A stretch of DNA of 64,000 bases, from the NCBI GenBank assembly GCA_015956445.1, contig WIUZ02000010.1, positions 1,054,001 to 1,118,000 on the forward strand, read 5' to 3'. A model generated the notes under the pieces. The model was not told where the DNA came from, ran no database searches, and saw nothing but the letters and a program-made list of their open reading frames with translations. Below are positions 19,994 to 56,120 of the stretch, piece by piece. Positions within the stretch are counted from its first letter, which is position 1. Every line of letters begins with the position of its first letter. The translations under genes and the position numbers were made by a program. Source of the DNA: Thelephora terrestris (taxonomy: Eukaryota; Basidiomycota; Agaricomycetes; Thelephorales; Thelephoraceae).

Positions 19994-21311
19994 CTAGAAG
20001 TAGTAGGAGTCCATATGCCCGACGCACGGAATGTTGTGGTTATCCACATGCCTCTTCAACGCGTCCCTCCTCGCGAAGGTCTTCATGCAACCTCCAATCA
20101 TCAATCGACCCCTAAAGTCGTAGGCCCCAGCCTTGATACACTCCTCCTCGGACATGCCCCGCTTGATGCCCTTTCCGTACAGATGCGCCCTATCCATCCC
20201 AACCCCACAGCATATCCACTTTTCTGGCTCCCTCCATCGATCGTGAGTTTCGATGTGGCGCTTGAGATCCGGAACGCGTTGGTTGCTTTGAACGTGGTTG
20301 CATCCGAGGACGGGGCAATGGAAGTCAGACTCCTTTTCGACGAACAAGGCGCGATCTTCGCATTGGAAGTTACGAGAGGGGATTTCACGCTTGTAAGGGT
20401 GTGAACGCCTGCTAGCCCGAGAAGAACCGACGCTGTTCTCTGATTCGGAGGAGGTGGAGCGGGCGGGAGAGAAAGCCGCGCGACGGGGAGACGTTGACTT
20501 GGGGGTCTTGCGCTTCTTCTGCTTTTGGCAGGAGGTAGACTGAGAGAGGCGGTAGTCTTCGTCGTCGTCGTCATCGTCGTCGTCGGAGGGAGGAATGTAG
20601 TCAACGTCGCCGTCTGAATCGGAGCTATCACCGGAGCGGGATGAGGCGGAAGGGCTTGTGGGAGGTGACGCGACGATTCCGTCATCTAGACGGTGTGGGG
20701 TTTGGGAAACATGGCCAAAATACAGAGCGTAGGCTGCCATGGTCGACGGATCGGACAATTCAGGCACCAGGGGGGAAGCAGAAAGCGCATGGGTGATAGT
20801 GGGGACCGAGATGTTGTAGGGGGTTGGTGACGTCTGTGGGGATTCATACATATCCGTAGTTTGTGCTTGCGCTGGCGAACAGGTGATATACTCGTTGAAG
20901 AACAATTCGCTGTAAGTTGATTGATATGTGGGGTCATAACTGTGTGATGAAGAAAGGAAGAGTCAGTCATCGTGATGGATGGAATATAGAGACAATCGCG
21001 TACAGATCCTCAGGTTGGATACCAAACGGTGCATTGTAGGCATTGATGGTAGACTGCATGCCATTGACGCGTTCGGTATCGGATATGGCGGGGGGCGGGC
21101 CAAGGTGATCGTCCCCGAAAGCTGATAGGAAATGGACGGCTGGGGAAGCTGGGGGACAGTCAAGGGTCGTAGCAACGCCCTCGAACAAACTGAAAGTCTC
21201 TTCATGGAAGGTAGAGGTGGTGACGCCGTCGATCCAGAAGGGCTCGGAGTTGAGCTCCTCCGTCAACTCGGGCTCAACGAAGATGGTGGATTGTCTGCTC
21301 AACGGAGACAT
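19994..21311 (-). CDS. C2H2 zinc-finger transcription factor
   Basis: Two exons, 21004-21311 and 19994-20939, with a 64-nt intron in phase 2, give 417 residues. The start ATG at 21311 (MSPLSRQST) is chosen because the two paralogous genes at 34044 and 50562 start at the same place. Exon 1 encodes an acidic/hydrophobic N-terminal region (ELTEELNSEPFWIDGV). Exon 2 has Ser/Pro-rich DNA, an Asp run (nine D in a row), a basic KQKKRKTPK patch that may be a nuclear localisation signal, then the fingers. Finger 1 is FHCPVLGCNHVQ...DLKRHIETH. A degenerate finger ends in GGCMKTFARRDALKRHVDNH. This C-terminal arrangement is common in mushroom C2H2 factors. It is head to head with guanine deaminase, 530 bp between ATGs. 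Target genes are unknown. Confidence 0.87.
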
Positions 21312-28313: not shown

Positions 28314-29066
28314 CTAGATCTTGTGGCACCGGTTCCCATGGTGGCCCCTCGTGCCGCACCTGGAACAGACCACCTTGGGTTTGGATCGCGGAGGTGGGGC
28401 GGCGCGGGGATGCTCATCATCAGCGCGATCTGCGTTGAATTTTCGCATGCTCTCGGCCTGGAGGATCTTCGCTCGGACCTCCTCGACAGTGAAGTCTTGA
28501 AGACTGCGGTTGGCGAGGAGACATTCGATAAAATGAGAGTAGGATTCGGGTAGGGAAACGAGGAGGGTAGCGGCGAACTTATGATCGCTGAGTTCGTAGC
28601 CGTTCACGGTGCAGCGAAAACGAAGCATGGTAAGTTTGTTGATTTGGTCTTCGAGGGTTCCGTCATCGACGAACTTGGTCCGAAGGAGTTGTCCGAAATA
28701 GCGTAGGCCTGTTATCGGATCGCTCTTCTCGTAGCGGGACTTGAGATGGTCCCAGAGTTCCTGCGCGTTGGGTCGACGAGTTGTGCCGTCCGTCTCGGTG
28801 ACGCCTGGCAGAGACCGGAGATGGAGCGCGATGGCGGGGTCCACGGTCTTCATGATGAGGCCGACCGCGATCATTTCTCGTTGGATGACGCGTTGTTCTT
28901 GGGCGGCGGAACTATCGATGGGATTGTTGGTGCCTATGAAGGCTCGCCAACACACCCCCAACATTGCTGTCGCCTCTATGTCCAAGGCCCATTCGTGGTA
29001 ATTCGCATTGCCGGTAAGGACCACGTTGTTGTCAACGATGAAGTTGGACTCGCTATCCAGTGACAT
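28314..29066 (-). mobile_element. Ty1/Copia-type gag fossil
   Basis: A single gag-type region of about 250 residues belonging to a Ty1/Copia-like LTR retrotransposon. It shows the UBN2-like gag pattern (YHEWALDIEA near the start, LWDHLKSRYE in the middle) and ends in a CCHC zinc knuckle, CSRCGTRGHHGNRC. No protease, integrase or reverse transcriptase part and no clear LTR pair was found nearby, so the element as a whole is a remnant. The gag part itself looks whole. Age is uncertain; the open state suggests either a young remnant or retention by the host (inference). Confidence 0.75.
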
Positions 29067-29939
29067 CGGGAAAAGAGGCGAAAGCAAAGAGAGACACTTG
29101 CGTGCGTCTCGCGAAGCCGATTTCAAGGATTTTCGATCACATAGCAGATATTGATCTCCCGCAAGAGTCTGTGTAACTTGACCGGTGATTCGTCTCGTAC
29201 TTATCCAGAGCACGATAGTCCTTGCAATCGGAATCCGACTGGAAATGTTCCACCGGTAAACCGATTCGCAGATGGAGAAACGTGGTGAGCACCAAAAAGT
29301 AGGATAGATCTTGCGTGGCAATTGGCTCAGGCGAGGATACTATATCAACTACCAGTGTATATGTGTCTAGGCTTTTAGAAAAAACCCGACCCGCGGTCTC
29401 AAAAAGGTTTGCGAATTCCAGCGAAAATTCCCTCTAGCGTTAGCACTCTCCAAACACTATATGATCCCCACAACTCGACCTGTCCTGGTGTCCGCAGAAC
29501 ACTTCGATGGCGGTCTATCTGCGAATGGTAGGTTACTCACCTTCAGGTTTTCTCCCTCTTCCGCACCACCATCGATTCGTTAAAGAGGAAACGGTATCTC
29601 ACGAGCTGACGGTCGAGCACTCTGATATGGGGAACCGAGTCCCTCAAGTATCTTCAAGCCAGGAGCGTGGGCCTCACCCAAAGCCGAGTAAGCCAACGAG
29701 TTTTCGACGCAGCCTCGCGCGATGGGGTGCGGCTGAGTATCTCAATTCGCCACGCGCTCCGAGCGCAGAGTTGTCCTGGTATTGCTGGCCCGGCTCAAAC
29801 TTGTTCCAAGGGATCAAGGAAGTGGGGCTCCAAGCAAATTCGAAGACCGGGTAGGACAACGGTGTGGTGTGTGGGATTTATCCCGTTGCGATATCAGAGA
29901 TAACACCGGGCCTTGCCTCGCAGGGAGGAGTTGAAGCGG
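29067..29939. other. Intergenic, possible remains of the Copia-type element
   Basis: No gene supported. Sequence just upstream of the gag part may be its leader, but no terminal repeat could be recognised. Confidence 0.35.
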
Positions 29940-30360
29940 TTCCCGCGTATGACCTGCTATGAGTAAAGAAGAGCGAGTTGGTCGAGGAGCCACTCACAGG
30001 TACCTGGGAACTGAAGAAGGCCAAAAGGTGACCGGTGAAATCAGCGGGAAATTTGTAATGACATCTGAATTATATCGTCGAGAAGATTTGATACGCTGGG
30101 GGCACGTGCAAGAGCTCGGCGTTTTTCCGATACACAGTAACACACACGACAACGAGGAAAGCCGGGGTGGCTTGAGCGAGAGATTGAAGGGGTAAACAAC
30201 CGTCTGGAGAAAGTGAGAGGGCCCGTGAAGAGCCACGGCAGATTCACGAACTTCCTCCTTTTATCATCCCTCACGTGAACCGAGAAAACGCAGGGGTCCC
30301 AGAATAAAATTTCTTGCGAATGTACAGCATTTATGTCGTATGGTAAAACGATCTGCAAGC
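29940..30360 (-). pseudogene. DUF6533 gene fragment
   Basis: On the minus strand an exon-like stretch reads ATPAFLVVVCVTVYRKNAEL then PPAYQIFSTI. It corresponds to DTLAFLVIVYSSRNRRDL and GAPNLLDNILQG in the DUF6533 gene at 5240-6976, and ends at a comparable GTGAGT donor. An in-frame stop interrupts it and no signature exon (YDYFLTLADE) or start is nearby. It is a relic, lying just downstream of F-box gene 1. Confidence 0.6.
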
Positions 30361-30409
30361 GCGTTTGAACGATAATTCGTCAATGATAAAGGGCGCCGAC
30401 TCACTTGTA

Positions 30410-32207
30410 CTACTCAACGATCGATGTTTCCCTTTCCTTCAAGCTTGAATAACAGTACTCCACGCTGTCAACCCACGTCCTCAGTTTCTGTTCTATCTCC
30501 TGGGACCTAATTGCGTCGCGAAAGATTATACGTTCAAAAGGGACGCCCAGCGCGTGCTGTGACTCCGCGAGGTTTTCGATCCTAGTGAGATGTTTATGAT
30601 ACTCGCAGTGGGAGATCGTGAGCTGCTTGATTGGTGTGAACGTGATCGCCTTTTGCTTGTCGCCGTCTTCGCAAAAATCGGAGAAGGAATCGAAGTACGG
30701 TTGCGGATGGCAGTTGTGGAAAGTTAACTCGTCCAGAGAGCCCAGAGACTTGAAGAGTAGGCGAAGGGTCCTGGTGGCGTCCTGCGAGCGTACGGCAGCA
30801 AAATTATCACAGACGCGAAGGCGCCTAAAATTTGCAACATGCGGGTGATCCAGGACAATCCGAGCAACCTCGGGATAGACATCGTATTGCTCCCGTGGGT
30901 TTTCGACTTTGATAAATAGGGTAGGGCGCCATGGAAGTGACGGGTATTCGGGGTCGACTTTGATACCCTCGAAACACAATTTGAGGACAGACCCATCGGG
31001 GGACCGGAAGGCAAATCTACGCGCAGCATCGCGACCGTCGCACAGTAGTTCGAATGCAACCTCCTCGGCAGGGTTCCTCGTATATTGATGAACAATCGCG
31101 TGCCATTCATCTGGAGTTGGGAGTGCGTCCTCCCGGAATGATTTGCTCAATTCTCCTGAACGGGAAAGAGATGTGGAGCTTGCTGAAGGACATGATATGT
31201 GGACCGCGAACTGGTAGAGACGTTCGCCTCCGATCAGGCATAGGTCGAAGCTGTCGACGTTGTCAAGAACAACGACCCTGCCCTTGGGGACCCTTCTGAG
31301 GTCTGACCCCACAAAATCCATGGCTTCGATGTACACGTCTCGCAGCATTGGCGAAGCTTCTAGCATGTCGAGTAGTTGTGAACCGCAGATCCCGTGTGGT
31401 TTTACCGACATCGAGAGAGAAGTAAGGTGCGGAAAGGTGAAGTAGCCCAAGGAGGGTGACCAACCCGAATCCGAATAGAAACCGAACGCCTTCAGGTTAG
31501 TGGCGTGGTTGAAGAGAGGCGTGGAGGGAGGAGTTATTGCACCGGAGGCTCCTTCGCCGTCTTCCTCGGTTCCAGTGGAGATTTCGAGGGTATGCAAGAG
31601 TGGAAGTGGACCGGAATTGACTCGTAAAAACATCTGGACATCCCTTAATTTGTGGCGTGTGAAATGAAGAGACCTGAATTGTTTTGTGTGGGAAGAAAGC
31701 AGCCCCATGGTACTGGCAGGGACCCCGGCATCGACGATTACATCCAACGCAGATCCTTTCGCGCGGTCGAGGAAAGTCTTCAAACAGGCTTCACCCTTCA
31801 AGAGAAATAGCTCTGACCACAGCTCGGCACACTGGAGAAAGGTTCTGCGCCAGCGGCGACATACGAAACTGGCACGGAGACGGTCCTTCTGAGAAGAGAG
31901 ATGGATGGGGATGAGGGCAAGGACATCCGATGGGATGCGGCCTATTCCAGTGAATGAGTTCCCCCATTCGCAGATCGTTGACAACGCGAGCAGGGTGTCT
32001 TGACGAAGTTGAGCGAGCTGATCGGCGGTGAGGCTGGGGAAATAGAATCAGCGACAAATTTATCTCCTGGGAGACCTCGCGAGCGAGTCTACAATGATCC
32101 ATTGCGACTTACGACGAAGAAAATGCCGTGTGCTTCAGCTCCTCGTTCAGGGCAAAGACGAGCTGCAGAGGCGATAGGCCCTTTCCGGGATAAGTCTGTG
32201 AACTCAT
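30410..32207 (-). CDS. F-box protein, array copy 1
   Basis: F-box protein of 572 residues from exons 32113-32207 and 30410-32033, with a 79-nt intron. Exon 1 starts MSSQTYPGKGLSPLQLVFAL. The F-box follows at about residues 60-105: RIPSDVLALIPIHLSSQKD and RASFVCRRW. The rest resembles the leucine-rich-like region of the expanded basidiomycete F-box families (for example LTSLSMSV, LLDMLEASPMLRDVYIEAMD, LDELTFHNCH). By family it would be a substrate receptor of an SCF ubiquitin ligase; substrate unknown. Paralogues at 45161-47003 and 56606-58426 share the intron position and the terminal block TPIKQLTISHCEYHKHLTRI. The array context suggests recent local duplication. Confidence 0.86.
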
Positions 32208-32439
32208 GGTGGGAGTGAAGGCGATGCAGAGGAGGGACCTGGGATGTTGAAAAAGCGGCAACCTCGAGTCGGCTATCAACTCGATGGGGCGCGATTATAG
32301 CACTATGACTCGAGCTGGTTCGAGTCGCTGTGTGTTAAACCCATGTCGTGATTCCCGAGGCCGATCTGGCCGATCGCTTCCCGCGCTCAGGGGTTTTCAT
32401 CGCAGTCGCTACAAACGAGTCGGCTCTCAGATGATTTTT

Positions 32440-33095
32440 CCACATGTGTGTAGTCTGCAGTAAATTCCAAGGCAGCTAGACCTGCGTCAGGGTGAGGTCA
32501 ATCAACGCGCGAGATCCTACTTGCGGAATAAACCGAACGGAGCCAGAGTCAAATAATTATCGTACAAATGAATATTTGAGACTCAATGATGTAAACTCGG
32601 GAAGAATTGAAGAGAGTGCCAAGTGATTCAAACGCGGCTATAGACAGGGAAGCGGAAGAGCGCACATGAACGCGGAATGAGATCCTATGCATGTGCGTCA
32701 GCATACACAAAAACGAGTGTCAAACTTGGTTCAACATACACCAATCAGAATCGTTTTCGCTTCGTCAGTCTCCTTCATATACTCGGGATATCCATGCTTT
32801 GGGCTGGGAAAGGATGTAATCCATTCGCTGAATCAGATCTGTGCGGTGTTCTACCGCATCGATCGCACTGAGTTCCTCCCTGATCAAACGCTGCATCTCT
32901 CCGTACAAGTAATCCCACTTCGACCAGATGACGAACAGACACGACTTGATGAGTCCAATGGACCCGAACGTTCGAACCGTTTGGAGAAAACGATTCCATT
33001 CCGGGGTTCTATAAGTGAGCGCGCAGAGAACAAGTCGCTTCCTCAGCCACTCCCAAGACGCTTTAGGCATAAGTGTGGGGCCGAATCTCATCATA
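32440..33095 (-). pseudogene. Solo DUF6535 3' end, relic 1
   Basis: Carries the 3' flank and most of the last exon of the array DUF6535 family (ASWEWLRKRLVL, then FGSIGLIKSCLFVIWSKWD, TDLIQRMDYILSQ), matching 35400-36200. The upstream six exons are absent, so there is no start and no membrane domain. The flank 32440-32700 has the shared sequence AGGGTGAGGTCAATCAACG found beside every DUF6535 3' end in the array. Confidence 0.75.
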
Positions 33096-33109
33096 AAACT
33101 GTAACTTGA

Positions 33110-33420
33110 GGAGCGGTGGCTTGTCGTCGTGGTCGGGGAAATCGAGAGGGCTAGAAACTTCTTTGGTCGTTGAGTTGTACAGACGGGCTACCACGAGGGA
33201 AGAAACGACGCGTCGTATTGGAACGGCTGAAGAGCTGTAATGAAGGAATGAAGTACTCTGTTGAGCGACTAACGGCGCACCGATATTGAGCCATCCTGAG
33301 CCCTAGCTGACGCGTTGCTTCCCCACCTCCTTGTCGTGTTCCATTAGGTCTTTCCGAAGTCGTGAGACCGCAGTGGCCGTCTACATAACGCCCGTATCCC
33401 AGGTTCAAGATATTTAGTTG
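33110..33420 (-). pseudogene. Guanine deaminase fragment 1 (inverted)
   Basis: The minus strand holds CTCGATTTCCCCGACCACGA, matching the DFLDHDDK segment of the guanine deaminase at 21842-23475. Upstream lies GGGATACGGGCGTTATG, related to the GIQGVM region. Most of the gene is missing and the remaining parts are out of frame. Its position head to head with the exon-array gene repeats the arrangement of guanine deaminase and the C2H2 factor at 20-23.5 kb. Confidence 0.6.
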
Positions 33421-33621
33421 GCAAGAGCTTTGCATAGTCTAAAATTTTCAGTCATTGAGAACTGCGTGTTTGGGGGTGGGCCGCTGCGACGCGCGGTCCA
33501 AGGTGGGAAGACATAGGAACATCCAGCGGGTACTTGCAGGGCGTCAGGAGAAAGAGTTCTTCAGAACCAATCAGACTCTCGTCGACCAATGTAAAGGCCA
33601 AGACATCGGGTACGCCGCCTT

Positions 33622-33705
33622 GTCAAGATGGTGGATCGCCTCGTCGAGATAGTGCACTGAGTTATCGAGATGGTGCTTCACGTTGTCAAAATAGTGGAGA
33701 GGACT
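33622..33705. repeat. Four 21-bp tandem repeats, copy 1
   Basis: Four units with anchor GTCRAGAT at 33622, 33643, 33664 and 33685, an exact 21-bp period with base differences. Read on the minus strand they give a heptapeptide repeat of the type HHLDNSV. The same block stands at 50159-50242 in the other module. Confidence 0.8.
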
Positions 33706-34043
33706 TGAATTATGGGAACACTTGGAACACTTGTTCAGGACAGCGGAAGTTGTGCTCACAAGCCTTGACCGCCGTCACGATATGGTTTCGTCACCGTGTC
33801 GGCGTCTCACGCGTGACCTAAAAAGGGCAACGACCCAAAACTGATCGAAATCACTTCTTGACTCTTTTGGATCACTTGTCAAATGCGTCCAGCATACGAC
33901 ACGGTACTGCATCGTGACGGTGGTCAAAGCCTGTGGCCACCCCAGATATAATCCTTCCCCAAGGTGAGTCCGGTCCTCTTTATCTTTGAGCCATCTCCTC
34001 ACCCTCTTCTCTCCATACGCTTTTGGTTGCATCCGTCCGCGTA

Positions 34044-35308
34044 ATGCCATTCAGCGCTCAAGAGATCACCCTTCTTCAGGCCAAGCTGAAGGAGGAGTTC
34101 GACTCTGGGCCATTATGGGTCAACGGGGCTCTTAGTTCTATCCTGTCTGAAGGGACTCTCCACCAGGTCGAGGGCGATACGACCGTTGACGGTCACCTTG
34201 ACCCGCTCCTCCCCTCATTCAATGATGCGGAGGACGTTGACTTTGTGGTCTCGGTTGTCGATGTACTACACGACATACACCCTGAGGACCTGTATGTGTA
34301 TCTCATTTCGTCCCCTTCCCCACCGACCGCGATTACTGACTGCACCCCCATACCTTGTCATATAGCTTCGGTCCCGCATCATGCCAAACAGCTAACAATG
34401 AATTTTTGGCAAGCACCATCCAACCTGAAGACCTGTATGTGGATTTTCCTTCATCTCCGTCTCCATCGATTATGATGACTGACCGCACCCCGGTTCCTCA
34501 TCGTACAGCTCCGGTCCTGCATACCAAACGGCTAAGAATGAATTTTTGGCAGGCGCCATCCAACCTGCAGACCTGTACATAAATTTCTCTCAGCCCTCAC
34601 CGCCACCGACCACGATGACTGACTGCACTTCCTTTCCTCATCATATAGCCCCGGTCTCAGATACATGTCCCAATTTGTTAATGTTGGACTGTTTGGATGC
34701 GCCTTCCAGCCTGGAGACCAGTGCGTAGATTTCTCTTTGACTCTGCCCCCTACAACCATGATGACTGACCGGACTCTCGTCTCGTATCATATAGCTCTGA
34801 TCCTACGTGTCAATTTCCTAACAACGAACTTTTGCCATGCACCATCCAGGCTAGAGACAAGTACGTGGATACTTCTTTGTCCCTTTCCCCATTGATCACG
34901 ATGGCTGGCTGCACACTCGTTCCTCGCCTCACAGCTTTCGTTCCGTGGACTTATCCATGTACAACCGATTGTCAGCCTCCTTTCTCCAGCCTGAAGATTG
35001 GTATGTTACTTTTTCTTCATCCCCGTTCCCACAAACCACGATGACTGACTGGACTCCCGTTGCCAATCATATAGCTTTGTTCCCACGTACCAATCTGATG
35101 ACGAACTGTTAGCAGAAAATATCCAGGCTGGAGACTGGTATGTGGATTTCTCTTCGTCTCTGTTCCCATCGAACACGGCGACCAACTGAACTCCCGTTCC
35201 TCATCATGTAGTTTTGACTTCCTGGACCAATCCACTTACGACGAATTGTCAATCCCTGGCATCCAGCCTGGAGGTATGTATGCGAGTTCGCCCGAGGCAT
35301 CTGAATAA
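34044..35308 (+). CDS. Exon-array protein 1: C2H2-factor N-terminus plus seven tandem 21-24-residue exon units
   Basis: Novel gene type, 248 residues. Exon 1 (34044-34291) is related to exon 1 of the C2H2 factor: LKEEFDSGPLWVNGALSS against LTEELNSEPFWIDGVTTS, and both end in PEDL. Then seven small exons follow: 34366-34434, 34509-34574, 34649-34720, 34795-34860, 34935-35000, 35075-35137 and 35212-35308. All internal exons are in phase 2 on both sides. All seven introns are exactly 74 nt with GTATGT/GTACGT-like donors, a GACTGAC-like branch region and CATATAG-like acceptors. Units run like SGPAYQTAKNEFLAGAIQPA. The last ends GGMYASSPEASE before TAA. No zinc finger remains. Transcription and function are not known; open frames and splice sites in every unit argue it is spliced. 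Confidence 0.7.
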
Positions 35309-35675
35309 ACCCAACATCCCTTGTATCAGGGATAGGAGAAACTCCTTCCCCCATTCTTACCCTCCCTTGTATGAGTACCCCTGGCCCGGTGCGAAAGATA
35401 TTTCCACATATGTGGTGAGTTTCAGGGCTTCGAGGCTTGAATTAGGGTGAGGTCAATCAACGTGCGAGGTCTAACAAATAACTGGACGAAGCCGTAGGAT
35501 CAAATAGTTATAGTACAAGGGAATGAGACTGGAGAGTGTAATATGTGTGAACTCGAGAATAGTTAAAGAGGGCAACAGTTGGCCACAACGCGACTATGGA
35601 CAAGGAAATGAGATCCTAACGTATGTGCATCAGTACTAAAACAAAAATGTGTGACAAATCCAGGCAAAATACCAG
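35309..35675. other. Convergent spacer with shared DUF6535 3' flank
   Basis: Lies between the stop of exon-array gene 1 (+) and the stop of DUF6535 gene 1 (-). From about 35400 it carries the 3' flank sequence common to all six DUF6535 3' ends in the array. Confidence 0.6.
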
Positions 35676-38633
35676 TCAGGACTGGTTTGACGCTTCTTCG
35701 CCTAGCTCCAGTAAATCTGTCTTGTATTCTGTGTACTGGCTGCCCTGCTGCCTGTCAAGCTTGGAAATGACATAATCCAACCGCTGAATCAGATCCGTGC
35801 GGTATCTTGCCGCACGAGTCCCCTTAAGCTCCTTCCTGATCAAAAGCCGCACCTTTCCACGGACCCTGTAGTGCTCCCGAGTGTCCCATTCTGACCAGAA
35901 GACGAACAGAAACGACGTGATGAGCTCGATGTCCTGGAGCGTTCGAATCGTTCGGAAAAAACCCTCCGGAGGGATAGTTTGGAGTGCAGGACTTCCAGCG
36001 GGGAGAACAGGTCGCTTCTTCAGCCATTCCCAAGCCGCTGGAGGTATATGGGGCCGGAGTTCATCATCGTATGCGATTCGTAGAAGCGCGTTGACCATAC
36101 TCTCACGGACAGCGGGTGTGTCCGGGAGCCCGGAGGCAGCTGCGATCCAGAGCCGCATCGAGACACCAACGTCACTTGAACCCTTCAGGAACCGGTGGTG
36201 GTCCTGGAACAAGCGCAATGTCACATATTTCATTGAAATTGGAAATGCTGGCCCAAGCATTAAGTAGCAGGTTCGAAATTCCAGGGAGGAACGGCGAGAA
36301 GGCTGGTGAGAACCCGGTGATTGGAATAGTATGTTCTACAGCTCACCTGCCCCATTTTCTTCACATCGGAAAGCATATGGTAGGTACGCAATTATGGCAG
36401 AGGTCTCTCCCAGGCCCAATTCTGGACGTAGGGAAGTGACTCTCTCGTATTTTTGAACTATCGAGGCGGAAAGTTGGCCGGGCGGCGCGCTGATGCGTGT
36501 TTAGCAAAACGCACACGGTTTTGAGTTGCAAACACACCTCTTTTTAACCACCGTGTTGGCATCCGGTACACTACACTCCAAGACCATGGCAATGAGGGTC
36601 AGACAGTCGACGATAACAGAGGCGGGAGGGAGCAACTCCTGAGACAGAAAATGGAACGCGAAGCGGGTCGTCCAAATCCACCTTGGACGATCATACCACC
36701 ACATTTGGTACCCGATCTGGGAAACCTGGGAAAGGGCCCGCGAAAATGTCTCTAGCTCATTGATTGGTGGGTTATAGCACCTCCAGTCAATATCCGTCCT
36801 CGCAAATCGACCCTGGCAAAACAACCCATACACTGCGCTCACGACGGTGGGATATTGATCCACGGCTGGCTGGCGTGGGAATTGACTTCTGTACCGCAAG
36901 TAAATATCGTCCATCACGAAGGACGTTGGGTCCTCTATCACCAAGGAAGAACAGGTGATGAGGAAACACGTGGCGGATGCTACTGCGAGTTCCCCCGACC
37001 AATTGGCGATCGGTGCCCTATCGTTGCCGCCACCAACAAAGCATTTGCTGAGTATATCAAAACAGTCAACAAGGATTGCGGATTTGGTTTGGGGGTGGAG
37101 GACGGTATGCGGCAGGATTGTTCCGAGAAAATTCATGGCCAACTCCTTGATGGCCATGTCCGAGGATCTCCGAAGCACCCACGAAACACAATGGAAGTCG
37201 ACTTCGGTTACCCCATTTCCAAGGGCCCGATTTGGAACAGGGGACCCAACGAGCCACCAGGAATAGGCTCTATAGGTGGAATTCACCAGCAATGTCACGA
37301 GATTCCAGATATCGGCGGCGAGTGCAAAGGGTATGGATGGGAATCGAATGTTTGGGAGACAGCGGAAATAGACGACGCCGCGATGATGCCCTCCAGCCTT
37401 AAACCACTTGGAACAGTACGAATTTGCAAAGAACCGGTCAAGTGAGCGACGGATAAGGTTTGACAACGGTGTTTGGTACGGGCAGTTGATGGAAGCCGCC
37501 CCCACGATAACGACGGAAAGGTAGAACAGAACACCGCACGAGGTCATCCCAACCACAACAGCTGCGACGGTCGTGTCAACCTCCCACAGATATCTGGAGA
37601 GAGCACAACCCATCAACAACAACGCGGCCTGTAGCATCAACGGCAAGGATTCGAGTACGTGGCTGAGGCACCAGGCGTTGACGCCGTTCAGCTTCCGTTG
37701 CCGATCCTGGCTGCGTTCGATAGCCGATCCTCGCAAGTCGATCGAACCGTATCGGCTCAACCATTGCTTTCCAAGCATCGCAATAAAGGCGGCCAGGAGG
37801 GAAGCAAACAGGCTGGCGTACAATAAGCATTGAACATGGATGATTGCTTGCGGAGGTCCAGCCCACTGCGGCAAAGCAGGAGCGTCACCGCCAAAGGTGG
37901 TGTTGTCGATCTTGTGGATGAGGACACGAAGGAGGGCAGCGGTCTCTTCGTTGGGGTCGGACTGAAGCTGCGGTTGGACCTGGGTGATGAATGCGGATGT
38001 TACCGCGGAGAACAGTCCAGCCTGGTATTAAGATTAGCGCGCATTCACTGGATCTCGCTCCTGACGCACAAATATCAAAGTTGTACTCAGATCTTCGCCG
38101 TACTTCTGCATGAACTCCTTGTCAAATTCTTCCGCCTCCTTGTGGTAGTGCTCGTAAAATAGAGTGCGGAGGTCTTTCGGGGCCGGGGGTGCGTCCGTGG
38201 TTTTGCTGCAGGAGGGGATTTAGCGTGGATCAGGGTAGATATGGAGTTGGATCCTACCGAGTAGCTGGCTGTCCGCCTGACCCTCCGTCCTCGGTTTCCC
38301 TTGTTGGACCTTGACTAGTGTCGGGTGTAAGAAATAGTAATTCACTACAACAAGGGACATCAATACGTTGGTTCCCCATTCCCGTTAACATTGTCCACAT
38401 CAATAAAAGCCCTGGGAGTCCTAGATTGCAGCATTCAAGTGCTCAGTGGGAAACCGAGGGGTGTGTGATACAACATACCATCCTCTTGGAGTCGACCCCA
38501 CCATCCTGGGACGATCTTCACCTTCATTACTACCGCCCTCCCTATTTGTGCACGCCAAAACGAATGAGCAAGGCAAGATCGAGAATCGTGGAAGGACGTA
38601 CAATTCCATACTGATCTCCTCCGAATCTGTCAT
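35676..38633 (-). CDS. DUF6535 membrane protein, array copy 1
   Basis: Seven exons (38602-38633, 38479-38541, 38258-38299, 38070-38205, 36538-38021, 36347-36489, 35676-36247) give 823 residues in one frame. It starts MTDSEEISMEL. The DUF6535 core is in exons 4-5: EEFDKEFMQKYGEDLSTTLI, AGLFSAVTSAFI, LYASLFASLLAAFIAMLGKQW, then two more helices (LMLQAALLLMGCALSRYLW and VVVGMTSCGVLFYLSVVIVG). The remainder is soluble and ends in the conserved block AAWEWLKKRPVL and TDLIQRLDYVISKL. An apparent stop at 36501 is removed by the 48-nt intron 36490-36537, whose position is conserved in copies 2 and 3. Function of the family is unknown; membrane location is predicted. Confidence 0.87.
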
Positions 38634-39111
38634 ACTTTGAATATTGAGGCGGGTGGGTAGGTAGGGACGATGGATGAGGGGCGAAAGCTAAGGCGAGCAC
38701 AAGCGCTCTCCATCAGGGGTCCTCGAAGGCAGTGCGTTGCACAGCCACGAGGTCATCACGTTCCGATGTCGCCCCAAGTACGGTAGGCAGGATGATTACG
38801 ACTGAATTCCGCGCCAGAACTTGCGGCTAGAGCGATTTCCAAGTCACGGGCTGCGGTTGCCGCCGAAGTCCAACAGGACTATATATTTTGGTCGCGTTAC
38901 AGCTGTTCCGGAAAACCTTGTCTTCGCCGAGTTTTTTTATTTTGTGACATTGACAGCTGTCAATGCGGAAAGGGTCAGGGGGTGCTGCGGGGTAGGATCT
39001 GCCCGTTTCCTCGAGAATTTCAGGGACGAGAGAGCGGAAGCAATAGGCTGCGAGCCACTCGGGGGTAGGGGAGATCTGTGGCGAAACCCGCTATCGCCCA
39101 TCACACTCCTC

Positions 39112-41462
39112 ATGGTCTACAGAAAAATTAGCAAAGACATCAAGGATCGCGCCATCGACTTGAGCTATCAAGGTCTCATTCCGCAGGACATCTGCGACCT
39201 TCTTGGAATCTCGTCTAGGAGCCTATCAAGATGGAAAAATTATGAGGACGTCTATGGATCCACCCTCCCTCCTCCAACATACACAGCCGGCCGGCCACGG
39301 ATTCTTATTGGCGAACAGGTCCTCTCGATCTGTGAACAACTAAATCGGGCGCCAGAGATGTACCTCGACGAACTACAGGATTGGGTTGCGCTAACGATGC
39401 AGACATCCATCTCAAAGAGCGCGCTATCTACACTAATTCAAGACGCAGGCTACTCGTTCAAGATGCTTCACAAAGCAGCAGCTGAACGGGACGAGGAGGA
39501 ACGGGCATTCTTTCGGAGCTGGGCCCGTGATTTTGTGATGGCAGAGATGGTTGTCACGGCTGACGAGTCCAGCAAGGACAACCGTACAATTTTTCGGCGG
39601 TGGGGGCATTCGGTCAAGGGAACACCAGCAGGGGTACACTCAAGGTTTGCGAGAGGTGAACAGTATAGCATCCTGGCCGCCATCAGTGTGGACGGGTATG
39701 TTGCAACTCGCGTTGTTGTCGGTGCAGTCGACAGCATCACGGAAATAGAAATGTCTTTAATCGGCTTTCAAGTGATCGAAAGCTGAAAAGCGGCCAAAGT
39801 TTCATGCCGCTTTGAAAGTACGTGTACTGGGCAGGTCCACCTTTAAAGCTCTTTGGAGCGACCTCAAAGACGGCACAAATGCCCAAAGTGACAATTTATA
39901 TTTTCATCATTTTGCTCACTTCAGTTCATGTTTCGCAGTTTAGAATAAAACCAATGTATTGCGCATATGCTGTAACTACAGATACAAATAACTAATGAAT
40001 GTAGCGAGCAATACTGAAAGGGGCCAGATAAATAATTGGTGAGAGGAGGCCAGAACAGTGAGCAAAAGAAACTACTGAACCAGCAGAACGGTCGAACGAC
40101 ATGATAAGGCACAATGTGGCGGTCGAGGCGCGAGGGTATCGAGGCTGGTGAACTGTGATAGCATAATGCAGTAGCCCTGGGACGACACATCAGAAAACCC
40201 TGGGCATGAAATGGAGCGGGAACTTACCAGGAGCTGGTGGTGGAGGGAGCTGCAGGTAAAGGTTGACTGCTGATGGATGCAAGTCACTGAGGGATGGCAT
40301 TGTACCGAGTACACCGAGGTAGCCGTGGCCAAAGAACTCGGACTGCGGCACACTGGGCCTTGCGCAACTCAGAGGCGAAGGTTTTGACAGGCTGGTGGCA
40401 TTGTTATCGTTGTCGTTGTCAGGCGCTTGGTCGCACGTCGGCGCGAAACAGAACGTGGCTGAGCATACTTTGCCTGAACTGCCTCGTTAGGGTTATTCCA
40501 CAGCTGTGGAAACTGATTAACTCACCCGAACTCCTTGGTCACCGGCAGTTCTTGGGCGACTGCTTTCGTCACCCCCAAGATTTGTTCAAATGTTCCATTT
40601 GGCCATCTTTCTCCCATAGTGCCGGGGTGCAACGCGAAGATGATATGGGGTGAGTGGGCTTTGGTGAAGGGGAAGGTCAGGGTTTCTGAGAAAGAGAGGA
40701 CATGCCGGAGATGCAGGACAGAGGGTTTGGCGAGAGGATTTGGCCGAGTCTACCGAGTCTCAAAAATTTCCCCACGCACGGACCTCGGCCCCAATATTTA
40801 ACGTGTTGGTGCAGAGTCCAAATCCCGAATGCGCGATCCACTTTTTCACTTTGTCGAGTTTGGCGCTTTGGCCGAATTTCGCGGCTTTCCACGGACTTTT
40901 CAGTTACTTTTTGCACTTTGATCGACTCTGGCACTTTGCGAAGAAACTGTTTTCATGATGAGCCACGAATTTTTTGATTTCATTGTTTCCGAAGTGGTAT
41001 GTTCATGTATTTGTTTCATGTTATATTCACTCATCCGTTACTCCAGCTACCGACAATGAACCCCTATCCACAGTCTCGAAGTGTTCTCATCCTCGATAAC
41101 TGCAACATTCACAAGTCTAAAATACTCCAAGAAATCGTTGAGGCATATGGTCAGTCCTGATTTCGTGCGGTATCATGTGTTTTTAACCATCTTTGTAGGA
41201 TGTATTCTCAAATTCCTCCCTCCTTATTCGCCAGATATGAATCCGATCGAAGAGAGCTTCAGTTCAGGTGAGCTAGTGATCCCGTGGTATTTACTCGATA
41301 GCTACTGACGATTTGCACACAGTGAAAGCGTGGATCAGACGCAACTGGGTGTCGTTGGCTGACAGCGAAGCACCGATTGCCGACTTGTACAACGCGTGCA
41401 GCGTTGTGACCCCGGAAAAGGCAAGGCAGTGGTTCTGCCACTCGGGATATCAGTCTTCTTGA
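39112..41462 (+). pseudogene. IS630/Tc1-type DDE transposase, interrupted
   Basis: The ATG at 39112 begins MVYRKISKDIKDRAIDLSYQ, with a helix-turn-helix DNA-binding part (LIPQDICDLLGISSRSLSRW). The catalytic residues are visible: first Asp in TADESSKDNRTIFRRWG, second in LILDNCNIHKS (near 41090), and the Glu in PYSPDMNPIEESF (near 41225). The C-terminal end is GYQSS before the stop at 41460. Introns are likely at about 41010-41050, 41150-41200 and 41270-41325. Reading breaks after VVVGAVDSITE near 39745 and resumes at EFFDFIVSEV near 40957. The 1.2 kb between is foreign sequence. Without it the protein would be of ordinary family length. Confidence 0.8.
39745..40956. mobile_element. Unclassified 1.2-kb insertion inside the transposase gene
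   Basis: Splits the transposase between VDSITE and EFFDFIV. It has no recognisable protein. Its ends are rich in CTTTG/CAAAG motifs, with a loose inverted similarity (GCGGCCAAAGT on the left, CGCTTTGGCCGAA on the right). A short CACG at both junctions may be a target duplication. Class not determined. Confidence 0.55.
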
Positions 41463-43325: not shown

Positions 43326-43634
43326 CGTGAGAGGGAAATTCGACAGCGAAAATGGGGGAAAATGAGAAAAAAAAATACAAAGTTCACTATCATAACACTA
43401 CGAGGACGAGTGGCACAGTGTGCCACTCGTCCGGCACAACCTTCTCCAGCGGTCCTGATTTTCTCGAGGAACCACAGGTGACTCCTACTCCAGCCAAAAA
43501 ATGCGGGTGGACCCTACCCCGCAGCACCCCCTGACCGTTCTGACATTGACAGCTGTCAACGTCAAAAGGAAAAAAAAAACTCGCTGAGGACAAGGTTTTC
43601 CGGAACAGCTGTACCTGGTCTCCCCATCACACTA

Positions 43635-45003: not shown

Positions 45004-45160
45004 TACATCACACCCTGATATAGTCAGTCATCATTTTGCGTAGGGGACTCTGAAATTATCGAATGGGGTCACCCCCGTGTCTCTATCGTACAGTGCAACT
45101 GTCTGAAAAAGGGTTTGGACGATAGGAATCCGCCAGATAGCAGGGGGCGCCGAACCTGTC

Positions 45161-47003
45161 CTAATCAATGATCGATGTCTCCATTTCCTTCGAGCTCGAA
45201 TAGCGATACTCCACGCTGTCAACCCATGTCCTCAGCTTCTGTTCTATCTTCTGGGACCGAGTCGCGTCGCGGAAAATTATACGTTCAAAAGGGATACCCA
45301 GCGCGTGTTGCGACTCCGCGAGGTTTTCGATCCTAGTGAGATGTTTATGGTACTCGCAGTGGGAGATCGTGAGCTGCTTGATTGGTGTGAACATGGCCTT
45401 TTTCTTGTCACCGTCTTTGCAAAAATCGGAGAAGGAATCGAAGTACGGTTGCAGATAGCAGTGGTGGAGGGTCAACTCATCCAGAGGGCCCAGAGACTTG
45501 AAGAGTCGACGAAGACTCCTTGTGGCATCCTGTGGGAACGCGGCAGAAAAAGTATCACAGAAGCAAAGGCGCCTGAAATTGGCAAAATGTGGGTGATCCA
45601 GGAAAATCTCGGCAACGTCTGGATAGGGATCGTATTCGTCCCATGCGTTGTAGGATGAAAGAAATCGGGAATGGTGTGAGTTCTCGTCTTCATCGTCTTT
45701 GGTAGCTTTGAAACCCAATTTGAGGACAGATCCATCAGAGGACCGGAAGGCGAATTTACACGTGGGGTTGGGGTCGCTCAGTAGTTCGAATGCAACCTCC
45801 TCGACTGGGTTCCTCGTATATTGATGAACAATCGTGCGCCATATATCTGGAGTTGGGAGTCCATCCACCAAACATGTTGTTTTTACATCTCCTGTACGGG
45901 CAAGGGATGTGGAGCTTGCTGAAGGACATGATATGTGGGCTGCAAACAGGTAAATGCAATCACCTCCGATCAGGCTTAGGTCGAAGTTGTCGACATTGCG
46001 AAGGACGACAACCCTGTCCTCGGGAAGCCCTTCGAGGTCTAATTCCACAAAATCCACGGCTTCAATGTGCACAATTCGCAGCATTGGCGAAGCTTCTAGC
46101 AAGTCGAGTAGTTGTGAACCGCGGATCCTGCGTGGTTTTGCCGACAGCCAGAATGAGGTAAGGTTCGGAAAGGCGAAGTAGCCCAAGGAGGGTGACCAAC
46201 CCGAGTCCGAGTGGAAACTGAACACCTCCAGGTTCGTGGCGTTGTTGAAGAGAGGCGTGGAGGGAGGGGTCATTACACCGGAGGCTTCTTGGTCGTCATC
46301 TTCTGCCTCTAGGCTGTATTCCTCGGCTTCTAAGCTGTCTTCCTCGGTTCCTGGGCTGTTTCGCTCCGTAGTGGTGATTTCGAGGGTACGCAAGAGTGGA
46401 AGTGGACCAGAATTGAGTTGTAAAAACCTCTGGATATCCCTTGATTTGTGGTGTGTGAAACGAAGAGACCTGAATTGTTTTGTGTGGGAAGAAAGCAGCC
46501 CTATGATACTGGCAGGGACCCCGGGATCGACGATTACATCCAACGCAGATCCTTTCGCGCGGCCGAGGAACGTCTTCAAATAGGCTTCACCCTTTGAGAT
46601 AAATAGCTCTGACCACAGCTCGGCACGCTGGAGGAAGGTTTCGCGCCAACGGCGGCATACGAAACTGGCACGGAGACGGTCCTTGTGGGAAGAGAGATGG
46701 GTGGGGATGAGGGCAAGGACATCCGACGGGATGCGGCTTATTCCAGGGAAGGAGTTCCCCCATTCGCAGATCGTTGATAACGCGAGCAGGGTGTCTTGAC
46801 GAAGTTGAACGAGCTGATCGGCGGTGAGGCTGGGGAACGAGGGTCAGCGGCAAATTTATCTCCCGAGAGACCTCGCGAGCGAGTCTACAATGATCTGTTG
46901 CGACTTACGATGAAGAGAATGCCGTGTGCTTCAGCTCCTCGTTCAGGGCAAAGACGAGCTGAAGAGGAGAGAGGCCCTTTCCGGGATAAGTCTGTGAGCT
47001 CAT
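45161..47003 (-). CDS. F-box protein, array copy 2
   Basis: Paralogue of the F-box genes at 30410 and 56606, with exons 46909-47003 and 45161-46829 and 587 residues. The F-box reads RIPSDVLALIPTHLSSHKD then RASFVCRRW. The C-terminal block TPIKQLTISHCEYHKHLTRI is conserved. It differs by an enlarged acidic stretch (TEEDSLEAEEYSLEAEDDD), made of tandem copies of a roughly 27-nt unit, where the other copies have a short TEEDGEEASG. The exon-intron layout (95-nt first exon, 79-nt intron) is as in the other copies. It would be an SCF substrate receptor by family. The two transposons lie just beyond its 3' end. Confidence 0.85.
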
Positions 47004-47160
47004 GGTGGGAGTGAAGGCGACGCAGAGGGGCGACGTTGAAAAAGCAGTCGAGCCTCGAGTCGGCTATAAACTCGACGGGGGCGATTACTATGACTCAGTA
47101 TGCTTAGTACCAAGCCGTGGTGCTGATTCAAGTCGCTGTGTACTTCGTTAGTAAACTACT

Positions 47161-47259
47161 GTCGTGACTAGGCTGGAATCCAGCCTCGAATTCAGAGGCG
47201 AGGAGGACGCGATTCGGAAGGGGACAATACCTAATAGGGGGACGACGCCTGTCGTGACT
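47161..47259. mobile_element. Short MITE-like insertion with 9-bp direct repeats
   Basis: GTCGTGACT stands at 47161-47169 and again at 47251-47259. The other two modules have a single related GTCGTGATT or TTCGTGACT at this place. The 81 bp between begin AGGCTGGAATCCAGCCT and end in GACGCCT. A related stretch in opposite orientation is at about 62655-62735. A 9-bp duplication is typical of Mutator-type elements. Confidence 0.6.
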
Positions 47260-47339
47260 CTTGAGGCCGATCGCTTAATCCCGCGCTCAGGGGTTTCCAT
47301 GCACTCGCTATAAACGAGTCGGCTCTCAGCTCGAAAGGT

Positions 47340-48370
47340 CTTTATTCCACGTGTGTGGAATCTGCAGTAAATTTCAGGGCAGCTAGACTTGCGTTAGGGT
47401 GAGGTCAATCAACGCTCGAGATCCTACTTGCGGAATAACCGAACGGAGCCAGAGTCAAATAATTATCGTACAAAGAATGAGACTCAATGATGTTAACTCG
47501 GAAATATTTGGAGAGAGTGCCAAGCGGCTCAAGCGCGACTATAGACAGGGAAGCGGAAGAGCACACATGAATGTGGAATGAGATCCTATGCATCATCATC
47601 ATCATGTACAAACTGACGAGTGTCAATCATGGGTAACACGCCAGTGCCAGTCAGGATCGTTGTCGGTTGGTCATCCAGCTCCAGCAACTCCCTCCTGTAT
47701 CCTTCATATACTCCGGATATCCATGCTTTAGGCTGTAATCCAGTCGCCGAATCAGATCTGCGCGGTATTCTACGGCATGGATCGCACTGAGTTCCTCCCT
47801 GATCAAACGCTGCATCTCTCCAACACTCGCAGTCGTGCAAGTGATTCCACCCCGACCAGATATCGATGACGGAAAGATACGACGTGATGAGCCCAACGTC
47901 CCCGAACGTTCGAACCGTTTGGAGAAAACGATTCCATTCCGGGGTTCTATAAGTGAGCGCGCGAAATCCGTGGCAGAGAACAAGTCGCTTCTTCAGCCAC
48001 TCCCAAGATGCTTCGGATATAAGCGTGGGGCCGGAGTACATCGTGAAAATGCGATTTGTAGAATCGCGTTGACCATACTTTCACGGTCATCATCTGTGTT
48101 CGAGAGCCCGGAAGCTGTTGCGATACAGAGTCGCATCGCGACACCAACTTCAGGATCCGGTAGGGGTTCTGGAACACGCCCAATGTCGCGTATTTCAGCG
48201 AAATAGGAACAGCTGCCCCAAGCATTAAGTAGCAGGTTCGAAAATCCAGGGGGAAACGGCGAGAAGGCTGGTGAGAACCCGGCCGTTGGAACAATATGTT
48301 CGACAGCTCACCTGCCCTATGTTCTTCCTGTCAGGAAGCATATAGTAGGAACGCAATTGTGGCGAGGGAC
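47340..48370 (-). pseudogene. Solo DUF6535 3' end, relic 2
   Basis: Contains the shared 3' flank, the last exon (EASWEWLKKRLVL; TYRTPEWNRFLQTVRTFGDV) and part of the preceding intron and exon of the array DUF6535 family, ending at GCGAGGGAC near 48370. Frames are broken (for example near 47985 and 48110), and the start and membrane exons are absent. Confidence 0.72.
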
Positions 48371-48469
48371 TTCAACGTTCACTAGCACTAGTCACTAGTC
48401 AAAGTCAAAGGGCACGCGGCTTCGGGTGCTTGATCGAGTCTGGCTTGACGATCACTTGCGATTTCCCAT

Positions 48470-49690
48470 GTCCACCTCCAACCATACTCCAAGGATGACC
48501 GCCTTGGACCACTCTCTGCCCCACCCGACGTTGCTAAACGCATTAGCTTGTGGGCTCATTAATGCTTCCAACGTGCCGTCGACGTTCAGCCTCCTGAAGA
48601 CCCGTGCGCTCCCACCAATCGCGACTGACTGTGCTTCCGTTCCTCAAAGTGTAATGTGGCTTGGAGCACCTACTCTAGTGAGCTCTTTCATGACATGGAC
48701 AACACCTGACCGCCAGCGCAAACTACGGCTATACACGGTCCCTCCAAATGGCACCAACCCTACGCGACATGATCTCGGTCACAATTATCACCCAAACACT
48801 CTCCGTAACCCACTTGATGTTCGCGTTGGTCAACCTTTCGACGATTGCGGCCTACGTCAGCTGACTACCTCCCCCGAGACCCGCTCTGTCCGAAGGATAG
48901 CGGAGTGGCGCATCATTTCCCAACTCTTCCGCCTCATCCTGCTACTGCGACAGCTCTGGATCCGAGTCGGGTCGTGACTACGTCCCTCCCCCCAACAATG
49001 ACGGGGGTTACAGTCAACCTTCCGCCAAAAGCAGAAGAAGCGCCAAGCGACCGACTCCAGGTCTCCCCTTCGCGCGGTGTTCTTACCTGCCTACTCTACC
49101 TTCTCAGGGTTGGATGGCGTCCATTCTTCTCGGGCTACCAGGCGTCCACATCCGTATACCAACGGTATCTCTCCTCCAGCCTAAGGACAGTGCCTTGTCC
49201 ATTGAAAGGAATCTAGCTCCGATCGCCCCTCGCCTAGAAGAACCAGCGCTTCGAGTTTTTGTCTAGATGAAGGCACACTCGCATGCTAGGTATCGCGAAA
49301 TCGGCACTACCCTACGAATCGGAAAGATGAAGCGCGTGCAGAATTCTATACGCATTTCGCCTCACTGATTTGTCAGCATGATGAAGCGTTAATACACTAT
49401 CGACTCCATCTTTTGAGCCGGCGGCGAACGTAAGTGGACATTTGTCAAACCTATGTCACACCGACAAACTTTCCACCTTGACAGAACCAACGTTTGTCTT
49501 GGACCGTGACACTGTCTCCAGTGTCCCGGTCGGTAGCAACATATATACAGGTGACAAACGTTTGAACCCTCATCTGGGCTTCGAACGCCACCTATCATGT
49601 TCACCAAAAGGCAAGGAGGGTCCTTTGCTCGCGCAGGGGCACACGATTAAACGTATCACAAATGATGAATTGTATTCTCCTTGGTAGTAC
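48470..49690 (+). pseudogene. C2H2 zinc-finger factor pseudogene 1
   Basis: Decayed copy of the factor at 19994-21311. INASNVPSTFSLLKT matches INAYNAPFGIQPEDL at the end of exon 1, and the intron motif GACTGACTGTGCTTCCG follows. Later come traces of the Ser-rich and acidic regions. Around 49510-49650 a worn finger reads VPVGSNIYTG then FERHLSC, against CPVLGCNHVQ and LKRHIETH. Several frameshifts and stops; finger cysteines are lost. Confidence 0.65.
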
Positions 49691-49744
49691 ATCCGTAGAA
49701 CGACAGAAGACACCCGCACCCTACAATGTGTTACACAATCCCGG

Positions 49745-49960: not shown

Positions 49961-50158
49961 AGAGCTTTGCGAAGTCTGAAGATTTCAGTCAGTGAGAACT
50001 GCGCGTTTGAGGGTGAGCCGCTGTGGCGCGCGGTCCAAGGTGGGGAGACGTACGAACATCCAGCGGGGACCTGCAGGGCGTCAGGAGAAAGAGTTCTTCA
50101 GAACCAATCAGGCTCTGGCCGACCGATGTAAAGGTCAAGAGATCGGGTACACCGCCTT

Positions 50159-50561: not shown

Positions 50562-51685
50562 ATGCCATTCAGCACCCAAGAGATTACCCTTCTTCAGGCC
50601 AAGCTGAAGGAGGAGTTCGACTCTGGGCCATTATGGGTCAACGGGGCTCTCAGCTCCATCCTGTCTGAAGGGACTCTCCCCCAGGTCGAGGGCGATACGA
50701 CCGTTGACAGTCACCTTGACCCGCTCCTCCCCTCATTCAATGATGTTGAGGACGTTGACTCTGTGGTCTCGGCCATCAATGTACCATACGACATACATCC
50801 TGAGGACCTGTATGTGGACTTCGTTTCATCCCCTTCCCCACCGACCGTGATTACTGACTGCTCCCCATCCCTTATCATGTAGCTTCGGTCCCACGTCATG
50901 CCAAACCCCTAACGATGAATTGTTGGCAGGCACCATCCAACCTGCAGACCTGTACGTGAATTTCTCTCAGCCCCCGCTGCCACCCACCACAATGACCCGC
51001 TGCACTTCCTTTCCTCATCCTATAGCTCCGGTCTCAAGCACATGTCCCAATTTGTTAATGTCGAATTATCTGGATGCGCCTTCCAGCCTGGAGACCAGTA
51101 TGTGGATAGCTCTTTGACCCTGCCCCCTATAACCATGATGACTGACCGGACTCTTGTTTATTATCATATAGCTCTGATCCTGCATGTCAATCTCCTAACA
51201 GCGAACCGCTGCCATGCATCATCCAGGCTAGAGACGAGTACGTAAATCTCTCTTTGTCCCTTTTCCTATTGATCACGATGGCTGATTGCACACTCGTTCC
51301 TCGCCACACAGCTTTGGTTCCGTGGACTTATCCATGTACAACCAATTGTCAGCCTCCTTTTTCCAGCCTGAAGATTGGTATGTGACTTTTTCTTCATCCC
51401 CGTTCCCACCAACCACGATGACTGACTGGACTCCCGTTGCCCATCATATAGCTTTGTTCCCACATACCAATCTGATGACAAGCTGTTAGCAGAAAATATC
51501 CAGGCTGGAGACAGGTATGTGAATTTCTCTTTGTCTCTGTTCCCATCGAACACGGTGACCAACTGAACTCCCATTCCTCATCATGTAGCTTTGACTTCCT
51601 GGACCAATCTGCTTACGATGACTTGTTAATCCCTGGCCTCCAGCTTGGAGGCATGTATGTGGATTCGCCCGAGGCATCAGAATAA
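50562..51685 (+). CDS. Exon-array protein 2: C2H2-factor N-terminus plus six tandem exon units
   Basis: Paralogue of the gene at 34044-35308 with one unit fewer, 226 residues. Exons are 50562-50809, 50883-50951, 51026-51097, 51172-51237, 51312-51377, 51452-51514 and 51589-51685. The first intron is 73 nt and the other five are 74 nt. All internal exons are in phase 2 at both ends. Exon 1 reads LKEEFDSGPLWVNGALSS as in copy 1. Units include FVPTYQSDDKLLAENIQAGD, close to DPTYQSTYSELFFNEY at the start of exon 2 of the C2H2 factor. The stop is in the same place as in copy 1 (SPEASE, TAA). The zinc fingers are absent. Function and expression unknown. Confidence 0.7.
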
Positions 51686-55163: not shown

Positions 55164-55299
55164 GCTTTGAATATTGGGCGGGTGGGTAGGTAGGGATGAT
55201 GGATGAGGGGCGAAAGTTAAGGCGAGCACAAGCGCTCTCCATCAGGGGTCCTCAGAGGCAGTGCGTTGTACAGCCACGAGGTCATCACGTTCCGATGTC

Positions 55300-56120
55300 A
55301 TGGCATGCATGAAAGCATCCAACGCGTTTTCGAGTTGTGCAAAATGAATCCTTGGTACTCTCATGAAGACCCGCAAGTCGCGGGAAGAGTCTGATCGTGC
55401 CATTAGCGCTACCTCCAGCTACCTACAAACCCCCGCAGATTACACCAGGCCCACAAGACATCTCGGTTCCCACCATCACCCAGGCACTCTCCGCAACCAC
55501 CTGGTGCTCGCATTGGTCAACCTTTCCACCATGGTGGCTTACATACGCCGACTACGTCCTCCGGCGAGCCTCACTCTGTCCAACAGGCAACGGAGGTTTC
55601 ACATCACCTCCCAGCTGTTCCGCTTCGTTCCGTTTCTGTCGCAGCTCTGGATCGGACGGTAGCACTAATCACGACAGTCGCCATCCTATTCGCACTCGGT
55701 CGACCTCCAACCAAAGCGGAAGAACCACAAGTCCACCAAGTCCAGGTTTCTCCGTGGTGTGGTCTTCTCAATCTCCCGCTCTACCTCCTCCGAATCTGTC
55801 GCTTCTTCTCGCGCAAGCAGGCGTTTGCACCCTTCCAAGAACGATATCACCCTTCGTAGCTTCTGATGTTAAAACGGCGCCCTCCAAGTTCGCAGTAATA
55901 TGCACATCGGTTGTGAGCCCTCATCCAGATTTCCAACTCTGCCTGATACGTTTGCTTGAACAGCAAGGGGCGTCATTTGGTCGCGCAGGAGCACACGATT
56001 AGGCGCATTTTATTCCACTTCGAAATTGGTAGCAAATCCGTAGAACGTCAGGACGGACCTCAACCATATGACGTACTACACACACAGTGCCCCTTCAGAG
56101 CCTATGCCACTTTTCAGCGA
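55300..56120 (+). pseudogene. C2H2 zinc-finger factor pseudogene 2
   Basis: Reads DISVPTITQALSAT (factor: NISVPTITHALSAS) near 55460, then traces of the Ser-rich region (SPPSCSASFRF, SSGSDG). Later AGVCTLPRTISPFVASDVKT corresponds to the frame +1 shadow of the region before finger 1. Frames are broken, and exon 1 and the fingers are not intact. In the first module the same interval is cleanly missing (GATGTC joined to GCCCCAAG near 38788). Confidence 0.65.

Follow-up and report, generated by a model that had tools for sequence, protein, structure and literature searches.

Within the 64,000-nucleotide (nt) window analysed here, positions 1,054,001 to 1,118,000 of contig WIUZ02000010.1 of the basidiomycete Thelephora terrestris, a predicted gene (A; 34044..35308 of the window, forward strand) carries an array of mini-exons, each encoding one repeat of its product. 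The array probably arose by tandem amplification of a single intron together with the coding ends that flank it, and we hold this origin, jointly with the gene model, with good confidence. Three kinds of relative in the same window bear on this account, namely a sister copy (paralog B), a parent-like two-exon gene (C) and decayed relics of C-like genes.

The model of gene A, rebuilt from the sequence, comprises eight exons of 248, 69, 66, 72, 66, 66, 63 and 97 nt. The same coordinates and exon sizes (a 248-nt first exon, six internal exons of 63-72 nt and a terminal exon) had been given in a first-pass annotation of this DNA, and its phase-2 boundaries, 74-nt introns and GT-AG splice sites were likewise reproduced for 7/7 introns, as was the absence of stops from the spliced frame, which encodes 248 amino acids (aa) up to TAA at 35306-35308. 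Exon 1 (34044..34291) ends in phase 2 and is followed by intron 1 (34292..34365). The array of six internal exons with their introns occupies 34366..35137, the exons being located at 34366-34434, 34509-34574, 34649-34720, 34795-34860, 34935-35000 and 35075-35137. Intron 7 (35138..35211) precedes the terminal exon (35212..35308), which contains the last repeat and the stop codon. All six internal exons are multiples of three in length and share the same phase, which is the architecture of tandemly repeated symmetric mini-exon genes. The repeat, present in 6-7 copies spaced 137-146 nt apart with 61-76% identity to the reference copies, exceeds chance. A profile built from the seven introns of A and their flanks retrieved 7 introns of A, these by construction, and 6 introns of B at an expect value (E) of at most 1.7e-20.

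The proposition that any unit could be skipped or added without loss of frame found support in the model, as each of the 64 possible sets of internal exons gives an open frame of 114-248 aa that ends at the same stop, and an in-frame loss of a unit is seen in B. Keeping any single intron unspliced leads to a stop at codon 233 or 234. A ninth exon, with donor GTATGT at 35274 and acceptor at 35329 or 35335, was considered but rejected in favour of the eight-exon model, since the counterpart of this donor in B is GC and the same TAA is retained there. An AATAAA hexamer overlaps the stop codon of A (35304-35309) and that of B (51681-51686). The predicted product of A is acidic, with an isoelectric point (pI) of 4.05 and 40 D/E against 7 K/R residues, and simple hydropathy did not reveal a strong N-terminal hydrophobic stretch. 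Pfam and NCBIfam gave no match to it. A nine-residue activation-domain pattern matched A four times compared with 2.6 times in shuffles (P = 0.27), which lends no support to such a domain, and it had no match in the first 200 residues of C.

The origin of the array can be traced by comparison with gene C (21311-19994, reverse strand; 417 aa). Its exon 1 (21004..21311, 308 nt) ends in phase 2, its single intron (20940..21003) is 64 nt long with GATGACTGACT, and its exon 2 (19994..20939) encodes a C2H2-like C-terminal part. The first exons of A and C are homologous (tblastn, E = 1.9e-7), and the junction of intron 1 of A corresponds to the single intron of C, which was found by the profile of array introns and flanks at E = 1.2e-10 and looks like the parent-like form of the array introns. 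By self-comparison and alignment, the region before the start codon of C and its exon 1 match those of A and B, including a DNA match of 50448-50715, at B, to 21429-21152. Gene A thus shares its start region, first exon and intron-1 junction with a C-like two-exon family. In a gap-tolerant alignment the terminal exon of A can also be placed on the coding sequence of C, with TAA in A where C reads on; A and B stop before the C2H2-like part and do not share this feature of the family. The first 145 residues of C have a pI of 4.05, the same as the predicted product of A.

Each of the 13 units of A and B resembles a chimera of the two exons of C. A sequence joining the start of exon 2 to the end of exon 1 (12 + 9 residues) gave a mean score of 30.7 against the units, compared with 6.2 for the exon-2 start alone, 9.7 for the exon-1 end alone and at most 5.2 for 300 shuffles of the chimera, although the chimera was the best of 425 length combinations and the shuffles were not optimised likewise. 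Each mini-exon therefore looks copied from a segment spanning the single intron. The proposed course of events would start from a two-exon, probable C2H2 zinc-finger family, with C as the full-length form and A and B as a shortened offshoot. In the ancestor of A and B, about 140 base pairs (bp) around the single phase-2 intron, comprising the end of exon 1, the intron and the start of exon 2, would have been tandemly duplicated several times, each copy creating a chimeric mini-exon in which the exon-2 start is followed by the exon-1 end and whose length is a multiple of three. Because the copied segment held a whole intron and a multiple of three coding bases, the added units could have been spliced in frame from the outset. 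The tail would reach a stop before the zinc-finger part. A later and larger duplication may then have produced A and B, after which B would have lost one unit in frame. Unit number may rise or fall by unequal exchange, B being an example of a fall. On this model, transcription and splicing would yield a short acidic product resembling the N-terminus of C and devoid of the putative DNA-binding part. No short direct repeats were found to flank the intron of C at the threshold used.

Paralog B (50562..51685, forward strand) has seven exons, encodes 226 aa and contains six introns, one of 73 nt and five of 74 nt, so that the introns of A and B together are 13/13 GT-AG and 12/13 of 74 nt. It is collinear with A unit by unit and has one unit fewer: the alignment shows that 140 nt (34397-34536 of A) are missing, and the counterparts of exons 2 and 3 are fused in frame. 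The locus of A belongs to a duplicated block, as self-comparison matched 33310-35104 to 49823-51618 (78%), 34417-35338 to 50792-51715 (88%) and the neighbouring 35375-38770 to 51843-55299 (86%). In a tree of the units, the six A/B unit pairs cluster together with support of 0.92-1.00, and therefore the amplification predates the split of A and B. The second units of A and B (A2 and B2) form a pair, supported at 0.92, outside which the third unit of A (A3) branches, and this makes loss of a unit in B likelier than a recent gain in A. The conclusion is tempered by B2 being a mosaic of A2 and A3.

Upstream of A, an inverted repeat of 30 nt per arm (33752-33781 and 33911-33940) has arms that are 83% complementary and 129 nt apart, and arms matching it are also present upstream of B, near 50290 and 50433. 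A 21-bp tandem repeat of 3.9 copies lies upstream of B (50151-50232), and A is preceded by a similar stretch near 33613-33690. Another segment upstream of B, 49847-50010, matches 23081-22909, which falls within an amidohydrolase-domain open frame upstream of C. From this match, the duplication founding A and B probably took along part of the neighbour gene of C.

Two features of the array, its splice sites and its frame, have been kept beyond neutral expectation, and of the results on architecture the one for splice sites is the strongest. None of the 26 splice sites is disrupted, and the frames of A and B are both intact. In neutral simulations on the unit tree, 11.1-11.9 of the 26 splice sites were lost on average, none of 4500 runs (3 x 1500) kept all of them and only 0.5-1.1% remained without a stop; these simulations started from a consensus unit, used a single tree estimated from the same units and ignored gene conversion. 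In the introns of A, the four splice columns are all among the 20 invariant of 74 columns (P = 0.004). The constancy of intron length was judged by the ratio of insertions and deletions (indels) to substitutions in the upstream flank of A and B (5 per 46 substitutions), at which about 19 indels are expected and one or none has P = 1e-7. Three exon length changes were inferred, all of them multiples of three, and the coding frame of the 13 units contains no stop (P = 0.01). The first-pass annotation had taken the retention of splice sites and frames in diverged units as an argument for function; this stood as far as splicing and frame are concerned and did not extend to the amino-acid sequence.

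Several results weigh against a constrained, working gene and against the family assignment. At the indel ratio of the A/B introns themselves, only 4 length changes are expected, and the constancy of intron length becomes weak evidence (P = 0.09). A second, shifted frame of these exons likewise has unusually few stops, 3 over 13 units compared with 9.2 expected (P = 0.03), and the stop argument is therefore weakened. A branch-like GACTGAC had been claimed for every unit; the literal motif is present in 4/7 introns of A and CTGAC in 5/7, introns 5 and 7 have neither, and CTGAC is absent from 3/6 introns of B. Constraint on coding positions relative to introns, whose absence the first-pass annotation had named as one outcome that would refute it, found no support, as divergence among the units of A is 0.43, 0.40 and 0.40 at codon positions 1, 2 and 3 versus 0.35 in the intron cores. 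The ratio of nonsynonymous to synonymous substitution rates (omega) was estimated at 0.95 across the 13 units (p = 0.83 against 1) and at 0.78 between A and B under a codon model (p = 0.37), with 0.59 for exon 1 and 0.83 for the repeats, neither significant. Site-class models revealed no conserved class and fitted no better. Divergence between A and B is 9.3% in coding sequence, 9.5% in the upstream flank and 11.1% in introns. They show 38 amino-acid differences, whereas 42 would be expected from the same number of substitutions (P = 0.145), and P = 0.001 is reached only with the intron rate imposed. For the interval since the split of A and B alone, neutrality gives a probability of 0.17 for no stop and of 0.06 for unchanged splice dinucleotides. 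As for the parent-like gene, the C2H2 models of Pfam match C below their cut-offs (zf-C2H2_4, E = 0.094), the best match reaching 13.9 bits against a cut-off of 27, and the predicted fold of its last 128 residues failed, with a predicted local distance difference test score (pLDDT) of 35.

Purifying selection had been read from a Nei-Gojobori dN/dS (the same rate ratio) of 0.46 (bootstrap 0.29-0.80, P = 0.005); this was dropped, as the method ignores the transition bias, evident in 52 transitions against 11 transversions between A and B, and the codon model gives 0.78. Amino-acid constraint on A and B is thus not detectable. The only hint of constraint on the character of the protein is an acidic excess in the units, whose acidic fraction of 0.144 exceeds the neutral 0.10-0.11 (P = 0.01-0.03) while neither the basic nor the hydrophobic fraction departs significantly from expectation.

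The assignment of C as a C2H2 zinc-finger gene is likely, not proven. Its C-terminal part contains one C-x4-C-x14-H-x3-H stretch and one half-finger. Against the PDB, the best match of C was to a cellulase-type enzyme (E = 0.048), and the fingers of ADR1 followed at E = 1.1 and 1.7. A decayed relic of a C-like gene (48540..49250, forward strand) keeps a single intron junction, and a second relic, of the exon-2 part (55400..55920, forward strand), consists of two C-like stretches in different frames. The last 100 residues of C have no significant match in either relic, and elsewhere in the window tblastn found them only at E > 1. Relatives outside the window were not confirmed in bacterial, archaeal and viral contig collections, which are uninformative about fungi.

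What the array does at present is less certain than how it was built. Tentatively, our first choice is that A encodes an acidic, weakly constrained fragment of the C family with a regulatory role; lacking the zinc-finger part, this fragment may meet the partners of the N-terminus of C. Nearly as likely is a decaying by-product, in which A and B are pseudogene copies of the zinc-finger family whose array was built and stayed in frame while a gene was active and has drifted without function since the A/B duplication. This explanation, a serious contender that we would nevertheless not put at even odds, draws on omega being not different from 1 both for A/B and among units, on A/B coding divergence equal to that of the flank, on the neutral probability of 0.17 for meeting no stop since the split and on the absence of the zinc-finger part from both copies; decayed C-like relatives nearby and the duplication-rich surroundings are in keeping with it. 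From the near-neutral divergence and the probabilities given above it follows that A, B or the two together may have become pseudogenes recently. Against decay stand the full set of splice sites and both open frames, those of B included despite its 140-nt loss, and the rejection of neutral loss over the whole history of the array, though not over the A/B interval alone. A variant with a working product, in which selection acts on the architecture (in-frame units of one length class, each spliced separately) and the amino-acid sequence of the units is nearly free, would make A an acidic variable-unit protein serving its zinc-finger relatives as a multivalent partner or competing with them; we regard it as unlikely.

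Still more doubtful is the idea, hinted at in the first-pass annotation, that the array represents a gene of variable unit number in which alternative skipping of exons yields protein isoforms. The open skip forms and the difference in unit number between A and B are compatible with it, but open forms follow automatically once an exon with a length divisible by three is duplicated, and amino-acid constraint was not detected. A quite improbable reading takes the repeat for an element that is non-coding or carried by introns, such as a tandem DNA repeat, with a fortuitous exon frame. Intron cores that are more alike than exons (0.35 versus 0.40-0.43 divergence) and the nearly open shifted frame would suit such an element, yet it accounts poorly for a stop-free coding frame in all 13 units, for GT-AG borders at every intron, for exon lengths changing in threes and for the homologous coding junction in C. 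Greater conservation of introns than of mature coding sequence has been described for another fungal family, the AGL genes of mycorrhizal fungi (PMC8786786), and this pattern alone therefore does not exclude a working gene.

Around the array lie open frames of the DUF6535 and F-box types, a copia-type gag and numerous duplications. Related stretches at 30211-38770, 45077-55299 and 56420-62362, carrying F-box/DUF6535 frames with about 71-86% mutual identity, form a local duplication cluster; DUF6535 is typical of agaricomycete fungi, in line with the basidiomycete origin supposed in the first-pass annotation. The copia-type gag open frame lies at 28314-29321 on the reverse strand. An open frame at 38821-39786 with a homeodomain-like helix-turn-helix match is possibly a DNA transposon, and 38898-39005 within it matches 43504-43613 in inverted orientation.

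Similar architectures are documented elsewhere. Schistosoma has symmetric micro-exon genes as well as tandemly repeated exons encoding 81-base repeats (PMC4015677). Like A, these genes have small symmetric exons that can be omitted without a change of frame, and repeats encoded by exons; unlike A, they belong to an animal and mostly carry a signal peptide (PMC4015677). The exons of A, by comparison, would go back to a single intron junction in a probable zinc-finger gene, and their skipping is hypothetical. In teleost fish, the zinc-finger domain of Piccolo has been amplified inside one gene with repeated exons, which resembles A (PMC3484663); there the zinc finger itself is amplified, whereas A lacks the zinc-finger part and its amplified segment is the intron-straddling junction. 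Arbuscular mycorrhizal fungi possess SP7-like effectors with 6-11 imperfect repeats and a conserved intron before the repeats (PMC11333574). These effectors are, like A, fungal proteins with imperfect repeats in variable number, and differ in that their repeats are closed by Y[KR]Rx[AP]x[AP], a motif that does not occur in A. A potato gene affected by a duplication across an exon-intron boundary (PMC4974935) shares with A a tandem duplication over such a boundary that increases intron number; in potato one new intron was assembled from parts, whereas in A the copying apparently took in an entire intron together with the coding flank on either side, and did so repeatedly.

No fungal family of the one-repeat-per-exon form had been known to the first-pass annotation. 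None was found among the literature matches listed, which cover few subscription papers, and in this respect the statement holds; as a claim of a novel form it must be narrowed, since animal precedents exist (PMC4015677, PMC3484663). One repeat per exon is thus already known in animals, and the fungal case was not met in these matches. What the Thelephora terrestris locus offers is a readable origin of a one-repeat-per-exon protein, with the parent-like gene, the array, its sister copy and the decayed relatives all within about 36 kilobases. The locus further allows selection on the amino-acid sequence to be told apart from selection on splicing and frame, two forces that are usually confounded.
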